Positions 3,804-13,580 of a stretch of DNA of 64,000 bases are shown piece by piece (position 1 is the first letter of the stretch; every line of letters begins with the position of its first letter). Position numbers and translations under genes: made by a program. The DNA comes from Massilia eurypsychrophila. GTDB taxonomy: Bacteria; Pseudomonadota; Gammaproteobacteria; Burkholderiales; Burkholderiaceae_D. The notes beneath the pieces were generated by a model. It was not told where the DNA came from and ran no database searches. It worked only from the letters and a program-made list of their open reading frames with translations. The stretch spans positions 1 to 64,000 of the forward strand of contig NZ_PDOC01000016.1 of the NCBI RefSeq assembly GCF_002760655.1, given 5' to 3'.

Positions 3804-4475
3804 ATGACCCAATTCCGCATCGCCCCCAGCATCCTGTCCGCCGATTTCGCCCGCCTCGGCGAGGAAGTGCGCAACGTCGTCGCCGCCGGCGCCGACATCA
3901 TTCACTTCGACGTGATGGACAACCATTATGTTCCGAACCTGACAATCGGGCCGCTGGTGTGCCAGGCCATCCGTCCGCATGTCGACGTGCCGATCGACGT
4001 GCACCTGATGGTCAAGCCGGTCGATCGCCTGATCCCGGACTTCGCCAAGGCCGGCGCCAACATCATCACCTTCCACCCGGAAGCGTCCGAGCACATCGAC
4101 CGCACCTTGCAGCTGATCCGCGATAACGGCTGCAAGGCCGGCCTGGTGTTCAATCCGGGCACGCCGATGCACTTCCTGAACCACGTGATGGACAAGATCG
4201 ACATGATCCTCATCATGTCGGTCAATCCGGGCTTCGGCGGCCAGTCGTTCATTCCGGAAGCGCTGAAAAAAATCAGCATCGCGCGCCGCATGATCGACGA
4301 ATCGGGCCGCGACATCCTGCTCGAAGTCGACGGCGGCATCAAGATCGACAATATCGCCGCCGCCGCCGCCGCCGGCGCCGACACCTTCGTCGCCGGCTCG
4401 GCCATCTTCGGCCAGCCAGACTACAAGGGCGTTATCGACGCCATGCGCGCGGAATTGGCCAAAACCGCGCGCTGA
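3804..4475 (+). CDS. rpe: Ribulose-phosphate 3-epimerase
   Basis: A 223-residue TIM-barrel enzyme interconverting ribulose-5-phosphate and xylulose-5-phosphate in the pentose phosphate and Calvin pathways. Diagnostic segments are all present: the [11 protein letters not shown] start, [12 protein letters not shown] (metal ligands His and Asp), HLMVKPVDR, the [10 protein letters not shown] phosphate loop and EVDGGI. Length is typical. In related bacteria rpe is normally followed by gph and the trp genes. Here its stop is only 19 bases from the convergent kdpE stop, and gph lies 9 kb further on. Confidence 0.97.
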
Positions 4476-4494: not shown

Positions 4495-5196
4495 CTAGGG
4501 CGTGCTGGTCGACAGACGGTAGCCGACGCCGGTTTCAGTGAGCAGGTGGCGCGGCTGGGACGGATCGTCTTCCAGCTTGTGACGCAGGTGGCCCATGTAG
4601 ATGCGCAGGTAGTGGCCGTCCTCGGCGTGCGACGGGCCCCACACGGAGCGCAGCAGCTGCGGATTGGTCAACACGCGGCCGGCACTGCCCACCAGCACGG
4701 CGAGCAGCCGATATTCGGTTGGCGTCAGGTGCACCCGGACGCCGGCTTTCGATACGCAGCGGTCCTTCAGGTCGACCGTCACGCTACCGAAGTGCACCTG
4801 GCCGGCAAGGTCGGCGCCAGGCTGGCGCTGCCGGCGCACCGTCGCCCTCACCCTCGCCTGCAATTCGCCGACGCTGAACGGCTTGGTCAGGTAGTCGTCG
4901 GCGCCGGCGTCGAGCGCGGCGATCTTGTCGGCTTCGCCGGTGCGCGCCGACAGCACGATGACCGGCACCGTCGACCATTTGCGGATGTCGCCGATGAAGT
5001 CGATGCCGTCGCCATCGGGCAGGCCCAGATCGAGAATGATGAGATCAGGACTGCGGGTGCCGGCGTCGCTCAGGCCACGCTGGACGGTGGCCGCTTCCTG
5101 CACGTTCCAGCCCTCTTCCTCGAGGGCGCCGCGCAAGAAGCGGCGGATCTGCGGTTCGTCTTCTACCAGCAGTGCAAGCGGCGCAAGGTCGTTCAT
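4495..5196 (-). CDS. kdpE: Response regulator KdpE
   Basis: A 233-residue OmpR-family regulator: receiver domain (about 7-120) with acidic E12/D13, phospho-acceptor D56 in LIILDLGLPDG and K105 in YLTKPF, then a winged-helix DNA-binding domain (about 133-229). It activates the high-affinity potassium ATPase operon when phosphorylated by KdpD. The start ATG (5194-5196) overlaps the kdpD TGA by the four-base ATGA arrangement, indicating translational coupling. The open frame continues far upstream through kdpD, but only the MNDLAPLALL start makes a normal-length regulator. The direct repeats upstream of the operon and of the porin gene are the natural candidates for its binding sites. Confidence 0.95.
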   Translation of the reverse strand: MNDLAPLALLVEDEPQIRRFLRGALEEEGWNVQEAATVQRGLSDAGTRSPDLIILDLGLPDGDGIDFIGDIRKWSTVPVIVLSARTGEADKIAALDAGADDYLTKPFSVGELQARVRATVRRQRQPGADLAGQVHFGSVTVDLKDRCVSKAGVRVHLTPTEYRLLAVLVGSAGRVLTNPQLLRSVWGPSHAEDGHYLRIYMGHLRHKLEDDPSQPRHLLTETGVGYRLSTSTP

Positions 5197-7892
5197 GCAG
5201 GCGATGCTTCCTGTTCGAGATCGGGCGTTGCAGGCGGCTGCCCCAACGGGAGCCTTATTATAAAGGCCGCGCCGCCAAGGTCCGATCGGGCGTAACCGAT
5301 GGTGCCGCCATGCGCTTCGACGATGGCACGGCAGATTGCCAGCCCAAGGCCGACGCCGCTGCCGGCCGACTCGCGCGCGCCACGCGTGAATTTTTCGAAC
5401 ATCTCCTCTTCCCGTCCCGCCGCCACGCCGGCGCCGTTGTCGGCCACGGTCAGCGTCGCCCATGCGCCGTCCACCGCGGCCGCGATGTCGACGCGCGAGC
5501 CGCGCGCGGTATGCTTGGCGGCGTTCTCCAGCAGGTTGCACAGCACCCGCTCCAGCAGCACCGCGTCGAATCGCACCAGCGGCAGATCGGCCGGCATGCT
5601 GGTCGTGACGATATGCCCGCTCAGTGGCCCGGCGCTCAGGCGCAGCGCCGTGCCGACCGCTTCCTCGAGCGCCTGCCACTCCAGGTGCAGCTTCACCTGG
5701 CCGCTCTGCAAGCGCGCCATGTCGAGCAGATTGGCTACCAGGGCGCTCATGCGCAGCGCTTCGCCGTGCAGGCTGTGCGCCATGTCCAGCTGCGCTGCCG
5801 GCAGCGGCGGTTTGGCCCGCGTCAGCGATTCGGACAGGCCGACCAGCGACGTCAGCGGGGTGCGCAGGTCGTGCGACAGCGCCGCCAGCAGCGAGTTGCG
5901 CAGGCGCTCGGTCTCCATGTTTACCAGCGCGCCCTGCGCCACTTCGATGTAGTGCACCCGCTCGAGCGCGATGGCGGCCAGCGCGGCGAAGGTATCGAGC
6001 TGCTGGCGTTGTTCGGGAATCAGGATCCAGCGCTGCTGTTCCGGCTCGATCGCCAGCACGCCGCGGGTGCGCATCGGCGCCACCAGCGGCAGGTAGAAGC
6101 ATCGGCTGGCGGGCAAGGTGCCGGTGCCGAAGCCGGCGCTTTCGGCGTGATCGTAAGCCCACTGCGCAACGCCGATATCCGGCGCGCCTGCCGTGTCGGC
6201 GCCGGCCGGCAGTTGCAGGCGCCCGTCCAGGTCAGGCACCAGCAGGATCGCCCTGGCGCCGAACGTGCGCCGAATGAACTCGCCGGTGATGTCGAAGATC
6301 TGCTCGGTCTGCAGCGCGCCGGATAGCTCGCGGGCGAACTCGTACAGCGCGCGCGAGCGCCGTTCGCGGTGCGCCGCGACATGGGCCTGGAAGCGCAACC
6401 CGGCCGTCAGGTGGCCGGTGATCAGCCCTACTGCCAGCATCACGCCGAACGTGACCACGTACTGCAAGTCGGAGACGGCAAACGAGAACCGTGGCTCGAC
6501 GAAGAAGAAGTCGAAACAGGCTACGCCGACGCAGGTGGCGACGACCGAGGCGCCGCGGCCAAGGCGAACCGCCACCAGTACCACCACCAGCAAGAACAGC
6601 ATGGCGATATTGGCCAGGTCGAGGTAGCCAACCAGGGGCGTGGCCAGCAGCGCGGTGGCCAGGCTGCTGGCGGCGGCCACGCCAAAGGCCAGCCAGCGGT
6701 GCTTGCCGGTCGTCGCCGCCTGCGCCGCCGGCGCCGGCGGCGCAGGCGCATGGGCGGCGTCGCCGATTTCCAGCAGGTCGATATCGGGCGCCATCGCCGT
6801 GATGCGCCGCAAGTGCGCGGTGCGCCACGGCCACGTCCTGTGGCCGCGCGCCATGACGATCTTCGACAAGTTGTGCTCGCGCGCATAGTCGACGATGGCC
6901 GCGGCGATATCGGCGCCGGCCACCACGGCGGAGCTCGCGCCCAGTTCCGCCGCCAGCTTCAGGGTCAGCAGCGTGGCTTCGCGGCGTTCGGCCGGCAGAC
7001 GCTGCAGCTGCGGCGTTTCGACATACACCGCATGCCAGTCGGCGCCGAGCTGGCCGGCCAGGCGCGCGGTGCTGCGCACCACATGCTCGCTGCCGGGCCG
7101 CGGACCGACGCAGGCAAGCAAGGCGCCCGCCGTTTTCCATACCGTGTCGATCGACTTTTCAATGCGGTAGGCGCGCACGTCGTCTTCGATGCGGTCGGCG
7201 GTGCGCCGCAAAGCCAGCTCGCGCAGCGCGATCAAGTTCCCTTTGCGGAAAAAATTCCTGGAGGCGCGCTCGGCCTGGGGAGCCTGGTAGACGCGGCCGC
7301 TCTTCAGGCGCGCCAGCAGCTCGTCGGCAGGCAAGTCGACCAGCACGACTTCGTCGGCGGCGTCAAACACGGTATCGGGGACCGTTTCAGCGACCCGGAT
7401 GCCGGTGATGCCGCCAACGACGTCGTTCAGACTTTCCAGATGCTGCACGTTGACAGTGCTGAACACATCGATGCCGGCGTCGAGCAACTCCTCCACATCC
7501 TGCCAGCGCTTGGGGTGGCGCGAACCGGGCGCATTCGAGTGGGCCAGCTCGTCCATCAGGATCAGCGCCGGCCGCCGCGCCAGCGCCGCGTCGAGGTCGA
7601 ATTCGCCGAGCGACTTGCCGCGGTAGCTGAGCGCCCTGGGCGGCAGCAGCTCGAGCCCGTCGAGCAGGGCGGCAGTCTCGGCGCGCCCGTGCGTTTCGAT
7701 CACACCAATTAACGGCGCATGCCCCTCGGCCTGCAGTTTGCGCGCGGCCGCCAGCATGGCGTAGGTCTTGCCGACCCCCGCCGATGCACCGAAGTAGATG
7801 CGCAGGCGCCCGCGCGCGTCCCTGCGCTGCTGGCTCTGTACCTGGGCAAGCAGCGCGTCCGGGTCGGGTCGCTCGCTGTCATTCTGAAACAT
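5193..7892 (-). CDS. kdpD: Osmosensitive K+ channel sensor histidine kinase KdpD
   Basis: An 899-residue membrane sensor kinase. The N-terminal KdpD domain holds Walker A GASAGVGKT (about 34-42) and LILMDELAHSN, followed by a universal-stress-protein-like domain (about 250-370). Four closely spaced transmembrane helices lie at about 395-490, then a GAF-like region. The C-terminal kinase carries H674 in the H-box LSHDLRTPL, an N-box NLLENAAKHT and G-boxes DNGAGV and GLGLAI. Length and order match full-length KdpD. It senses potassium limitation and phosphorylates KdpE, with which it overlaps by 4 bp. It starts 21 bases after the kdpC stop. Confidence 0.97.
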   Translation of the reverse strand: MFQNDSERPDPDALLAQVQSQQRRDARGRLRIYFGASAGVGKTYAMLAAARKLQAEGHAPLIGVIETHGRAETAALLDGLELLPPRALSYRGKSLGEFDLDAALARRPALILMDELAHSNAPGSRHPKRWQDVEELLDAGIDVFSTVNVQHLESLNDVVGGITGIRVAETVPDTVFDAADEVVLVDLPADELLARLKSGRVYQAPQAERASRNFFRKGNLIALRELALRRTADRIEDDVRAYRIEKSIDTVWKTAGALLACVGPRPGSEHVVRSTARLAGQLGADWHAVYVETPQLQRLPAERREATLLTLKLAAELGASSAVVAGADIAAAIVDYAREHNLSKIVMARGHRTWPWRTAHLRRITAMAPDIDLLEIGDAAHAPAPPAPAAQAATTGKHRWLAFGVAAASSLATALLATPLVGYLDLANIAMLFLLVVVLVAVRLGRGASVVATCVGVACFDFFFVEPRFSFAVSDLQYVVTFGVMLAVGLITGHLTAGLRFQAHVAAHRERRSRALYEFARELSGALQTEQIFDITGEFIRRTFGARAILLVPDLDGRLQLPAGADTAGAPDIGVAQWAYDHAESAGFGTGTLPASRCFYLPLVAPMRTRGVLAIEPEQQRWILIPEQRQQLDTFAALAAIALERVHYIEVAQGALVNMETERLRNSLLAALSHDLRTPLTSLVGLSESLTRAKPPLPAAQLDMAHSLHGEALRMSALVANLLDMARLQSGQVKLHLEWQALEEAVGTALRLSAGPLSGHIVTTSMPADLPLVRFDAVLLERVLCNLLENAAKHTARGSRVDIAAAVDGAWATLTVADNGAGVAAGREEEMFEKFTRGARESAGSGVGLGLAICRAIVEAHGGTIGYARSDLGGAAFIIRLPLGQPPATPDLEQEASPA

Positions 7893-7913: not shown

Positions 7914-8498
7914 TTAACGGTGTGCTGGCGGCTCGGCATCGAGCGCCAGGTTCAGGGCAAGTACTTTGACCCTGGCTTCGCCGAAAAGCCCCAGCGTTTG
8001 CCCGACAGTATGCGCCGACATCAGCGCTTCGACCCGCTCGGGCGCCAGTTGGCGCGCCGCCGCCACCCGGCCGGCCTGAAAGCGCGCGGCGGCCACGCTG
8101 ATCTCCGGATCGAGTCCGCTGGCCGAGGCCGTTACGAGGTCAACCGGAATCGGGGCGATATTGGCCGGGTCGGCCTCCCGCAGCGCGGCAATCCTGCCCT
8201 TGACCGCATCGACCAGTGCCGGGTTGAGCGGACCCTGGTTCGAGCCCGAGCTGCCGCTGGCATTGTTGGGCATGGGTCCGGTGGCCGATGGCCGGCCCCA
8301 GAAGTAGCGCGGCGACGAGAACGATTGGCCGATCAGGGTCGAGCCCACCGGCTTGCCGTCGCGCAGCACCAGGCTGCCGGACGCCTTGTCGGCAAATGCG
8401 ACCTGGCCGATGCCGGTCACGGCCAGCGGATAGAGCACGCCGACGACCAAGGTCAGCGCGCCAAACAAGACGAGGGCGGGACGCAGAGTGGATTTCAT
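7914..8498 (-). CDS. kdpC: Potassium-transporting ATPase subunit C
   Basis: A 194-residue KdpC with one N-terminal membrane helix (about 7-28) and a periplasmic domain. Family signatures include the [19 protein letters not shown] block, FWGRPSA and the [10 protein letters not shown] segment, followed by the [11 protein letters not shown] motif. KdpC assembles and stabilises the KdpFABC complex and helps cooperative ATP binding to KdpB. It lies 11 bases downstream of kdpB in the same operon. Confidence 0.96.
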
Positions 8499-8509: not shown

Positions 8510-10612
<2,103 letters not shown>

Positions 10613-10636
10613 CGTGGACTCCGTGGCCATGGATGA

Positions 10637-12442
10637 TTACTTGGTATAGAGCTGCAGGTGTTCGACTACCGGGCCGAGGGCCAGGGCAGGAACGTAATTG
10701 AGCACACCGACGAGCAGCACCACGCCGACCAGCAGCCCGACAAAAATCGGCCCGTGGGTCGGCATGGTTCCCGGATTGGCCTCGAGGCGTGGCTTGGCAG
10801 CGAGCGCGCCGGCGATGGCCAGGATCGGCACGATCACGGCGAACCGCCCGAACCACATCGCGATGGCCAGCATGGTGTTGTAGAACGGCGTATTGGCGGA
10901 CAAGCCGGCAAAGGCGCTGCCGTTATTGTTGGCGGCAGAGCTGAAGGCGTACAGGATCTCGGAGAAGCCATGCGCGCCTGGATTGGCGATGCCAGCCTTG
11001 CCGGCATCGAGCATGACGGCAATGGCGGTACCGCCCAGCACCAGCAGTGGCGTGACCAGGATCGCGATCGACGCCATCTTCATTTCATGACTCTGGATTT
11101 TCTTGCCCAGGTATTCCGGCGTGCGGCCGATCATCAGGCCGGCGATAAAGACGACCAGGATAGCAAACACCAGCATGCCGTACAGGCCAGAGCCGACGCC
11201 GCCGAAGACAACCTCGCCGAGCTGCATTAACAGCATCGGCACGGCGCCGCCCAGTGGCGTAAAGGAATCGTGCATGGCGTTGACGGCGCCACACGAGGCG
11301 GCCGTGGTCACTGCGGCGAACAGGGCCGAAGCCGAAATGCCGAAGCGCGTTTCCTTGCCCTCCATATTGCCCCCTGCCTGCAGGGCGTTGCTGCCCTGGT
11401 CGACGCCAAGCGCCGCCAGATGCGGATGGGCTGCCTGCTCGGCGCCCATCACAAGCAGCGTGGCGGCGACGAAGATGAGACTCATGGCGGCCAGCACCGC
11501 AACGCCCTGGCGCTGATCGCCGACCAGGCGTCCGAACGCGAAGCACAGACCGGCAGGAATAAGGAAGATGGCGATCATCTCCACGAAATTCGACAGCGGT
11601 GTCGGGTTCTCATACGGATGCGAGGAATTGGCGTTGAAGAAGCCGCCGCCGTTGGTGCCGATCAGCTTGATCGCTTCTTGCGAGGCAACCGGGCCCATGG
11701 CGATGGTCTGGGACCTTGCGACGACGCTCTGCATCACCGCCTGGCCCTGGGCGTCCTTGAGCGGCTGTCCATCGGCGCCGGCTTTCGGCATCGAATAGGT
11801 GACCGGATCGATCAGCTGCACTTCCTGGTAGGCAGAGAAATTCTGGATCACGCCTTGCCCCATCAGCACGACGGAAAACAGCAAGGACAGCGGCAACAGT
11901 ACATATAACGTCGAGCGCGTCAGGTCGACCCAAAAATTGCCGATGGTCTTGGCCGAACGTGCGCTGAAGCCGCGCACCAGGGCAAACGCCACTGCCATGC
12001 CGGTGGCTGCGGAGAAAAAGTTCTGACCGTTGAGAGCAAGCATCTGCGTCAGGTAGCTCATGGTCTGTTCGCCACTGTATCCCTGCCAATTCGTATTTGC
12101 GACGAAACTGACGGCCGTATTGAACGACGAGTCCGGGCTGATATTGGCCAGCGCCTGGGGGTTAAGCGGCAGCCATCCCTGCAAGCGCTGCAAGGCAAAA
12201 ACGAACAGCGCGCCGACGCCGTTAAAGACGAGCAGCGCAACCGTATAGGACTTCCATCCCATGTCGGCCTCGGGTGACACGCCCGCGGCCTTGTACAAAA
12301 GCCGTTCGGCGCGCCCCATCCAGGTCAGGCCGGGGACGGCGCCGCCATCGCCGACGCGGGCAAGCACGATGCCCAAGGGCCATGCAAGCACGAGCAGGAC
12401 AGCCAGGAATGCGCCAAGCAGCGCCAGAGATTGCATCGTCAT
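10637..12442 (-). CDS. kdpA: Potassium-transporting ATPase potassium-binding subunit
   Basis: A 601-residue multi-span protein related to K+ channels, forming the ion-selective pore of KdpFABC. Selectivity-filter-like segments such as [10 protein letters not shown] with the following [11 protein letters not shown] are clear, and the protein is of normal length. The ATG at 12440-12442 follows a GGAGGAG ribosome-binding site and overlaps the kdpF stop (TGATG). A GTG one codon earlier is possible. Ten or more hydrophobic helices are evident. The gene begins the main structural block of the operon and is 24 bases upstream of the kdpB start used here. Confidence 0.96.
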
Positions 12443-12528
12443 CACAGCTCCTCCGCTTTCAGCAATGCGTGGACCAGGTAGGCCAGCAGGCCCACGGCGA
12501 CGACCGCGCCAATTTGCCAGATTTCCAT
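12442..12528 (-). CDS. kdpF: Potassium-transporting ATPase small subunit KdpF
   Basis: A 28-residue single-helix peptide (begins [13 protein letters not shown], ends KAEEL), the right size and position for KdpF, a lipid-like stabiliser at the KdpA interface. Its TGA overlaps the kdpA ATG, and its own ATG overlaps the stop (TAATG) of the preceding 29-residue ORF. The chain of one- to four-base overlaps suggests tight translational coupling. Confidence 0.85.
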
Positions 12529-12617
12529 TATTTGCTTCCCAACTTGTCGCAGCCGGCCGCGAACGCCCAGGTCAGAGCGAAAAACAGCGCCAGTGCGCCG
12601 ATGTAAATTGCATCCAT
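12528..12617 (-). CDS. 29-residue membrane peptide at the head of the kdp operon
   Basis: The reading frame starts at 12615-12617 after a clear AGAGGGA ribosome-binding site and ends TAA, overlapping the kdpF start by one base. The peptide ([20 protein letters not shown], then AGCDKLGSK) is one membrane helix with a short polar tail. It resembles KdpF in size and could be a second small subunit or regulator of the pump. Comparable short ORFs before kdpF occur in other bacteria but have no firmly assigned role. Evidence rests on its RBS, its overlap and its hydrophobic pattern. Confidence 0.65.
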
Positions 12618-12636: not shown

Positions 12637-12663
12637 ATACGGCAAGGGTATCGATTGCCGTAT
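12637..12663. promoter_or_regulatory. Perfect 9-bp inverted repeat before the kdp operon
   Basis: ATACGGCAA (12637-12645) and its exact complement TTGCCGTAT (12655-12663) flank a nine-base spacer, between the direct-repeat operator and the first small ORF. It could be a repressor operator or, if transcription starts upstream of it, a leader hairpin that masks or spaces the ribosome-binding site about 10 bases further on. Its right edge touches the first half-site of the operator. Confidence 0.55.
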
Positions 12664-12710
12664 AAAGATTTTCTAAAGACTTCAACGTGCGCCGTAAACA
12701 AACCGTAAAA
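12661..12710 (-). promoter_or_regulatory. Four-half-site operator upstream of kdp (probable KdpE box)
   Basis: TAAA-centred half-sites begin at 12663, 12674, 12695 and 12706, that is with spacings of 11, 21 and 11. The same four half-sites with the same spacings recur 870 bases away upstream of the porin gene, including a 17-base identical word (12664-12680). An 11-base period of direct repeats is what OmpR/PhoB-family regulators such as KdpE bind. The assignment to KdpE is inferred from location; the repeats themselves are visible. Confidence 0.65.
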
Positions 12711-12711
12711 A

Positions 12712-13452
12712 TCAGAAGGTTTTAGTGACCGTCAGTACGAGCGCCGATTTGCCGAGAAATTTGCCATTCGCGGGCGAGGCATAGGCCACCTTGCCGGCAT
12801 TGGTGCCGACATAGGCAAGAGAGCCGGTAACGACGCCGAAGTCGCGTGTTACGCCGATTTTCCAGTCCGTGTAGCTGGCCGCGGCGTTGTTGGCCACGCG
12901 CTGGCGGCCTGCATGAAGATTGGCGATCAGCCCTTGGCCGGCGTCCAGGTTGGCAGCCAGATCGAGGTAGCCGCTGTTCTTGCTGTCGACGAAGCCGAAC
13001 AGATTTGTCACGGCGTGCGAATACTTCACCAGTGCCGGCCCGTAAGACAATTGGCCGTACACCTCGGTGGTGTTGGCGTTGGCGAAGCCGGGCACTGTCG
13101 CCAGCTTGTTCGATGGGTAGACGTAAGTGAGGACGCCGACGTCGTAGCCGAGGCCGGCCGCCAGTTCTCCGCGCTTGCCTGCATACAGGTCTATCTCGAT
13201 GTCGCCGTCTCCGCCAGCATCCTTCGTCCATTTGATTGTTGAGGCCCACGCACCGGCATACAGCCCGGACGCTTTTTGGACGAAGTCGGCGCCGCCCTGC
13301 AGTGCAGGCTTCAATCGCGTCTGGGAAATGCCGCGGTAGCGATAGTCGCTGGTCACGGCGGCGTTGAAGCTCAGGTCGGTCGCCTCGTCGGCGCGCGCGG
13401 CGCCGGCAGAAAAAGTAAGGATTGCAGCAGCTGTAAGGAGTAAAAGTTTCAC
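12712..13452 (-). CDS. TorF-like outer membrane porin (TIGR02001 type)
   Basis: A 246-residue outer-membrane beta-barrel with a cleavable signal peptide (VKLLLLTAAAI...ARADEA). The mature start has the family's hallmark: SFNAAVTSDYRYRGISQT, then a PALQGGADF strand, and the chain ends in aromatic KTF. The start is a GTG (13450-13452) with GGAAGAG seven bases upstream; an in-frame ATG at 13524 gives an implausible leader. Function within this family is not established. Sharing an operator with the kdp operon suggests a role in outer-membrane permeability when potassium is scarce. Confidence 0.85.
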   Translation of the reverse strand: MKLLLLTAAAILTFSAGAARADEATDLSFNAAVTSDYRYRGISQTRLKPALQGGADFVQKASGLYAGAWASTIKWTKDAGGDGDIEIDLYAGKRGELAAGLGYDVGVLTYVYPSNKLATVPGFANANTTEVYGQLSYGPALVKYSHAVTNLFGFVDSKNSGYLDLAANLDAGQGLIANLHAGRQRVANNAAASYTDWKIGVTRDFGVVTGSLAYVGTNAGKVAYASPANGKFLGKSALVLTVTKTF

Positions 13453-13530
13453 GTCGGCTCTTCCGGTTATTGTCAAAATGGACGCGCACTCGACATGCGT
13501 CATCAACTGGAAGTAGCGTAGCAAGCAAGC

Positions 13531-13580
13531 CGTAAAGATTTTCTAAAGACATGGGCCGGTCTTGTAAACGCGGCGTAAAG
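13531..13580 (-). promoter_or_regulatory. Four-half-site operator upstream of the porin gene
   Basis: Half-sites at 13533, 13544, 13565 and 13576 reproduce exactly the 11-21-11 spacing of the operator before kdp, each displaced by 870 bases. Bases 13534-13550 are identical to 12664-12680. The block lies about 80 bases before the porin GTG and about 75 before gph on the other strand, so it may also touch gph transcription. Confidence 0.65.

Follow-up and report, generated by a model that had tools for sequence, protein, structure and literature searches.

The minus strand of a Massilia genome carries two copies of one four-half-site operator at a distance of exactly 870 bp, one before the potassium uptake operon kdpFABCDE and one before the gene for a TorF-family porin that adjoins it upstream. 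Very likely both are operators of the response regulator KdpE, through which the porin and the Kdp pump would be induced together; the binding and the induction at low K+ are inferred. In the mechanism proposed here, scarce K+ would lead the sensor kinase KdpD to activate KdpE, which would bind both operators and turn on two adjoining transcription units, the porin and kdpFABCDE. Each operator would consist of two tandem KdpE sites, with two half-sites per dimer and the pairs 32 bp apart, and would end just upstream of a weak -10 element. A further step, judged separately and about as open as a coin toss, is that the 12-stranded outer-membrane pore would help K+ to reach the pump; sister porins before glnK-amtB would do likewise for NH4+.

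The kdp locus and its operators

Massilia is a bacterium of soil and water. The window, that is the whole stretch of 64,000 nucleotides analysed here, carries on its minus strand, in this order, the TorF-family porin, an ORF for a hydrophobic peptide of 29 residues, kdpF, kdpA, kdpB, kdpC, kdpD and kdpE, the last ending at 4495 (Table 1). The GTG start of the porin was chosen by eye, and its N-terminus was likewise judged by eye to resemble a signal peptide. The kdp transcript would have the 29-residue ORF as its first gene, with a one-base overlap between this ORF and the start of kdpF.

Table 1. Genes and putative regulatory elements of the kdp locus, with positions in the window
Feature	Position	Strand	Evidence
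TorF-family putative porin gene	12712..13452	-	TIGR02001 180.3 bits, PF09694 194.9 bits
Small hydrophobic peptide ORF, 29 residues, before kdpF	12528..12617	-	ORF reading
kdpF, 28 aa	12442..12528	-	TIGR02115 33.6 bits, cut-off 26.85
kdpA	10637..12445	-	profile match
kdpB	8510..10630	-	TIGR01497 1082.6 bits
kdpC	7914..8498	-	profile match
kdpD sensor kinase	5193..7892	-	profile match
kdpE response regulator	4495..5190	-	NF007820 334.7 bits (cut-off 325); best PDB match E. coli KdpE 4kny, E 2.8e-90
Four-half-site KdpE-type operator before the kdp operon	12663..12709	-	TTTA at 0/11/32/43; no binding data
Four-half-site KdpE-type operator before the porin gene	13533..13579	-	genome pattern search; no binding data
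Putative -10 TACCCT, kdp promoter	12645..12650	-	offset 59-64 from operator start
Putative -10 TACGCT, porin promoter	13515..13520	-	offset 59-64 from operator start

An earlier note on this DNA had pointed out eight TAAA words, at 12663/12674/12695/12706 and again at 13533/13544/13565/13576, with every site shifted by the same distance and with identical spacings of 11-21-11. When the letters were read again all of this held, down to the exact shift, and only the identical core needed correction, from 17 bases to 18 (TAAAGATTTTCTAAAGAC). The half-sites read TTTA on the minus strand, the same strand as the porin and kdp genes. Across the 5.95 Mb assembly (119 contigs), the pattern TTTA-N7-TTTA-N17-TTTA-N7-TTTA has only two perfect matches, both in the window. 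Allowing up to 3 mismatches in 16 gives 13 sites, namely the two window blocks with none, one site with 2 and ten with 3, while a backwards control pattern of the same looseness (up to 3 in 16) gives 26, so that the 2- and 3-mismatch sites of this genome are to be regarded as background.

Between the two operators only 35 of 54 aligned bases are identical, which points to a common set of half-sites and not to a freshly copied promoter, and a recent promoter duplication in the window is ruled out on this ground. The 18-base core, taken alone, could hint at a copied segment, and one might then suppose that the common block arose by chance or by recent copying and has no regulatory meaning; this is barely credible given the low overall identity, and given that the half-site register and the -10-like element are kept in kdp and porin promoters across genera. 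A chance repeat is ruled out by the uniqueness of the pattern in the genome together with its conservation before kdp and before porin units.

Conservation of the operator before kdp

Conservation was followed in 115 loci, the window and 114 others of the 118 genomes of the family with KdpA (three fragments, G044, G087 and G133, were left out); L060 and L061 are missing from one tabulation. The score applied to porin boxes, here and in the second, named set below, was trained on kdp promoters alone, with no porin sites in the training. An operator with at most 3 mismatches in 16 precedes kdp in 106 of the 115, the best block before kdpA having 0 mismatches in 74 loci, 1 in 22, 2 in 7, 3 in 3 and 4-8 in 9; random windows of the same loci, from which porin promoters were not excluded, reach 3 mismatches or fewer in 10 of 2160 cases. 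Counted by genus, an operator with at most 2 mismatches is found in 22 of 28 and is absent at that threshold in 6. The earlier note had held that its reading would fail if the block were not conserved while the genes were. The search of relatives finds the block before kdp conserved along with the genes, and that refutation does not apply.

The consensus over the 115 loci is TTTACA-N5-TTTACA, followed at 32 bp from the start by TTTACA-N5-TTTTAG or something near it. Counted from the operator start, offsets 59-64 hold a TA...T element that is near-invariant in 102 distinct kdp promoters and 34 distinct promoters of porin units. If this element is the -10, the half-sites would begin near -71, -60, -39 and -28, which by inference is the layout of an activator sitting over the -35 position.

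Porin placement and the presence of an operator

A TorF-family porin (at least 200 bits) is found near kdp in 71 of the 115 loci, from 14 of 28 genera. The other 44 show no porin match of at least 200 bits in the stretch that was fetched (three have a partial match at the edge, and some contigs are short); partial matches below 200 bits, in L078, L084 and L093, were excluded. The porin gene occupies five different places: just upstream of kdp (23 loci), further upstream (5), convergent downstream (7), in the gap between kdpC and kdpD (15), and after kdpE on the same strand (21). Porins in the first three places could not be read from the kdp promoter and were counted as separate units, while those between kdpC and kdpD or after kdpE could be and were counted as in-operon; both assignments come from gene order and strand, not from transcripts. 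An operator of the porin's own, with at most 2 mismatches within 1.6 kb upstream, is present in 32 of 35 separate units and in 0 of 36 in-operon porins, with 0 of 606 random windows as a control. The Fisher value for operator against placement is 4e-17, which overstates the independence of related sequences, and counts by genus are fairer. Three genera (g22, g32 and g40) hold both placements, and in these the operator tracks position, with L064 (g32, 3 mismatches) and L115 (g40, contig end) as the exceptions. These two and L077, which has 3 mismatches like L064 and only 420 bases upstream, are the separate units without an operator at the 2-mismatch threshold. In seven loci with an upstream porin and no near box (L088, L091, L095, L099, L156, L166, L176), a box with 0-2 mismatches was found higher up. 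That the porin belongs to the potassium regulon, as the earlier note had proposed, is supported by this comparison, in which the porin has or lacks an operator according to whether it would form a separate transcription unit; expression at low K+ remains inferred.

A second, named set consists of the best 80 of at least 579 porin loci, the titles being mostly of Oxalobacteraceae genera. Its organisms overlap those of the first set, and it is not independent. Among these best 80, 50 porins are linked to kdp, 28 to glnK, none to both and two to neither, one of the last (L267) ending 2 bases from a contig end and the other (L296) lying on a 5-kb contig. For the 50 kdp-linked porins of the best 80, a box stands within 700 bp of 19 of the 20 near-upstream genes and of both convergent ones, and of none of the 8 that lie far upstream or the 20 in the operon. 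Of the eight far-upstream units, seven carry a 1-mismatch box some 1 kb further up, and in the eighth (L259) the contig end is reached; a box with 1 mismatch higher upstream is recorded for L234, L240, L246, L256, L258, L264, L265 and L270 of the named set. In L115 and L259, no box was found in the roughly 0.46 kb that separate the porin ORF from the upstream contig end. In L234, the only far-upstream case that was read, the box is separated from the porin by a small ORF and a ParA-like gene.

A single operon led by the porin and running into kdp is not needed in the window, because kdp has its own operator there, but such an operon may exist in L104 and L167. In these two loci kdp has a degenerate operator (7 and 8 mismatches) and the upstream porin a good box (1 and 2), a pattern that would fit a takeover of the entire operon by the porin promoter. 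Outside the window's family the kdp-porin partnership is sparse: 4 of 49 KdpA-positive genomes (G285, G302, G324 and G329, from three families) carry a porin gene no more than 9 kb from kdp and on its strand, a count made by eye that includes one genome below the KdpA cut-off.

KdpE as the regulator

In E. coli, the KdpE half-sites TTTATA and TTTACA, with a 5-bp spacer and an 11-bp period, have been tested by gel shift, and residues R193, R200 and T215 of the protein are important for DNA binding, as given in the accessible part of PMC3264566. The half-sites of the window match this TTTAnA type with its 11-bp period and stand before kdpFABC, as the E. coli site stands before kdpF, and the KdpE of the window is identical to 4kny at all three residues (by alignment, with a chain-numbering offset of two read by the analyst). 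The systems differ in that one half-site pair is described for E. coli in the same part of PMC3264566, whereas the Massilia window has two pairs 32 bp apart, and there are further targets. According to the portion of PMC7657598 that was available, kdpFABC had been the only target known for KdpE in E. coli, to which adeP, uxaA and uxaC are added as further direct targets. None of the six direct targets named in that portion is a porin, a statement that leaves aside 31 genes supported by ChIP only (PMC7657598). The earlier note had seen in the 11-base direct repeats the binding style of OmpR-family regulators and had proposed KdpE, encoded in the operon itself. The gene is indeed there, above its profile cut-off (Table 1), and the proposal gains support from the E. 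coli half-site letters, the kept residues of KdpE and the conservation of the block; these are comparative data, from which binding by KdpE is inferred.

Across the family, 113 of 195 genomes contain the block at 1 mismatch or fewer, and such sites are present in 102 of 118 genomes with KdpA and in 11 of 77 without it (counted by eye). The regulon is known only incompletely, the targets being those among the matches listed, read in 40 stretches. Among the matches listed, the operator precedes a gene for a KimA-like K+ transporter (PDB 6s3k, E 4.6e-59, with no hit in Pfam or NCBIfam) and one for a universal stress protein (PF00582). L223:1-4047 comes from a genome that lacks KdpA; there the operator stands before a KdpD-like kinase lacking the N-terminal KdpD domain, followed by KdpE and Kup, and in L210 and L222, also without KdpA, it likewise precedes a KdpD-like kinase without that domain. 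Several of the 40 sites look like chance matches, for example L213, L228 and L230, as judged by the downstream frames.

Two other kinds of gene recur downstream of the operator. A DapA-family gene follows it (operator near 4001) in L192, L194, L196, L197, L200, L201, L204, L207 and L208, and also in L227:3315-4712 and L234:11300-12221; the identity rests on TIGR00674, above cut-off in L227, and on like sequence in the other loci. Operator and DapA-family enzyme are separated in L227 by a small ORF that matches nothing in Pfam or NCBIfam. A ParA/MinD-like gene follows the operator in L193, L195, L198, L199, L202, L206, L209 and L234:9000-9888. In L193 the ParA-like gene has a weak NF041546 match below cut-off and no Pfam match, and in L234 the ParA/MinD-like gene lies directly before the porin.

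The blocks could in principle be bound by another regulator of the OmpR/PhoB family, in which case an osmotic or phosphate signal, say, and not K+, would control kdp and the porin. Many OmpR-family regulators use direct repeats of ~11 bp. Phosphorylation of E. coli KdpE by PhoR as well is reported in the accessible part of PMC7657598. Such a regulator is nevertheless improbable, since the half-site letters equal those of E. coli KdpE, the operator also precedes the KimA-like K+ transporter and the cluster of short KdpD, KdpE and Kup, and genomes with the operator track KdpA.

The porin and its glnK-linked sisters

With KdpE taken as the regulator, there remains the role of the porin. It scores 180.3 bits against the curated TIGR02001 cut-off of 47.15 and so falls within the TorF family (TIGR02001, PF09694 Gcw_chp), which reportedly takes its name from a TorR-regulated gene of Shewanella; what sets the porins of the Massilia family apart is their partners, kdp or glnK-amtB. 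In the available part of one published study, a 'TorF family putative porin' appears as a protein in a nanoparticle shell. The AlphaFold2 model is a barrel of 12 strands preceded by a start helix of low confidence (pLDDT 88.1, pTM 0.81), with a similar barrel for a glnK-linked sister (pLDDT 82.0, pTM 0.76), and the protein is predicted to be an outer-membrane beta-barrel, without localisation data. The closest solved folds are KdgM (Z 16.7, rmsd 2.3 over 163 residues, 6% sequence identity) and NanC (Z 16.4, rmsd 2.7 over 183 residues, 11%), with VhGalP also among the nearest; all three are sugar porins. In Pfam (E up to 0.001) the window porin matches PF09694 only, so that it is no member of a KdgM/NanC profile, and it has no sequence match in PDB (E up to 1). 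KdgM and NanC have a basic pore lining, which suits acidic sugars. By a strand-parity estimate made without coordinates, 11 acidic and 3 basic residues face inward in the window porin, and 8-11 acidic against 3-4 basic in the other 29 porins of both kinds. On the strength of this estimate a cation-friendly pore is plausible, not demonstrated.

The window genome has a second TorF-family porin, which is followed by glnK, and in both loci scanned for it (L276 and L303) amtB follows glnK (PF00909). No KdpE box was found within 700 bp of glnK-linked porins, either in the 28 of the named set or in 23 further loci. A sigma-54-like -24/-12 motif is present before 47 of 47 glnK-linked porins (1 mismatch in 30, 2 in 17, perfect in none) and before 1 of 48 kdp-linked ones; 47 of 51 and 48 of 52, respectively, were kept in this comparison, the others failing a motif or length filter. 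A loose NtrC-type box pattern did not separate glnK-linked from kdp-linked porins, and only the sigma-54 motif is therefore claimed. The glnK label requires 10 changes on a tree of 122 porins, at least 9 of them on well-supported branches, with the caveats of long branches, an arbitrary root and uneven sampling. In G100 the kdp-linked stretch matches the glnK-linked one at 97% identity over 828 bp, which, from the sequences, would be a recent case of such a change of partner. The gene partnerships and the promoter swap are thus observed, and the sister copies suggest a K+/NH4+ pore, passage of cations and ion selectivity being inferred.

The porin could also belong to the KdpE regulon and serve envelope or turgor adjustment, or for example oligosaccharide uptake, instead of K+ passage, which would be compatible with co-regulation. 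This has to be taken seriously, although we lean away from it. The nearest folds are sugar porins, which makes sugar or another substrate possible on structural grounds, and general porins usually pass K+, so that a dedicated pore is not obviously needed. The porin, as modelled, shares the 12-stranded fold of KdgM and NanC, but its gene partners do not suggest sugar specificity: sister copies have a sigma-54-like motif and precede glnK, with amtB next in both loci where this was checked, and the repeated change between kdp and glnK on well-supported branches fits a common K+/NH4+ property better than sugar. The acidic lumen predicted from strand parity also speaks for passage of cations. We therefore put forward, at roughly even chances, that in Oxalobacteraceae and some other Burkholderiales the porins of the TorF family are outer-membrane pores dedicated to small monovalent cations, joined in modular fashion to either the potassium-starvation regulon (KdpE operator, Kdp) or the nitrogen-starvation regulon (sigma-54 promoter, GlnK-AmtB).

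Significance

In the phosphate systems PhoE and OprP under PhoB, one two-component regulator switches on a pore of the outer membrane together with a high-affinity uptake system of the inner membrane. The arrangement proposed here would be alike in its working, with pore and uptake system co-induced, for potassium instead of phosphate and with barrels unrelated in size and sequence. To our knowledge, Kdp regulation has so far been described up to the inner membrane only, and no title or abstract opening that links kdp or KdpE to a porin was found in the openly licensed literature, an absence that is weak evidence. A porin controlled by KdpE would add an outer-membrane step to potassium scavenging and gives the Gcw_chp/TorF family, whose function is unknown, a role that can be tested. 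The defined operator can be used to map K+ regulons beyond E. coli. If the reading as a pore for monovalent cations is true, the outer membrane would limit the entry of K+ and NH4+ in dilute habitats, and this step would be regulated.
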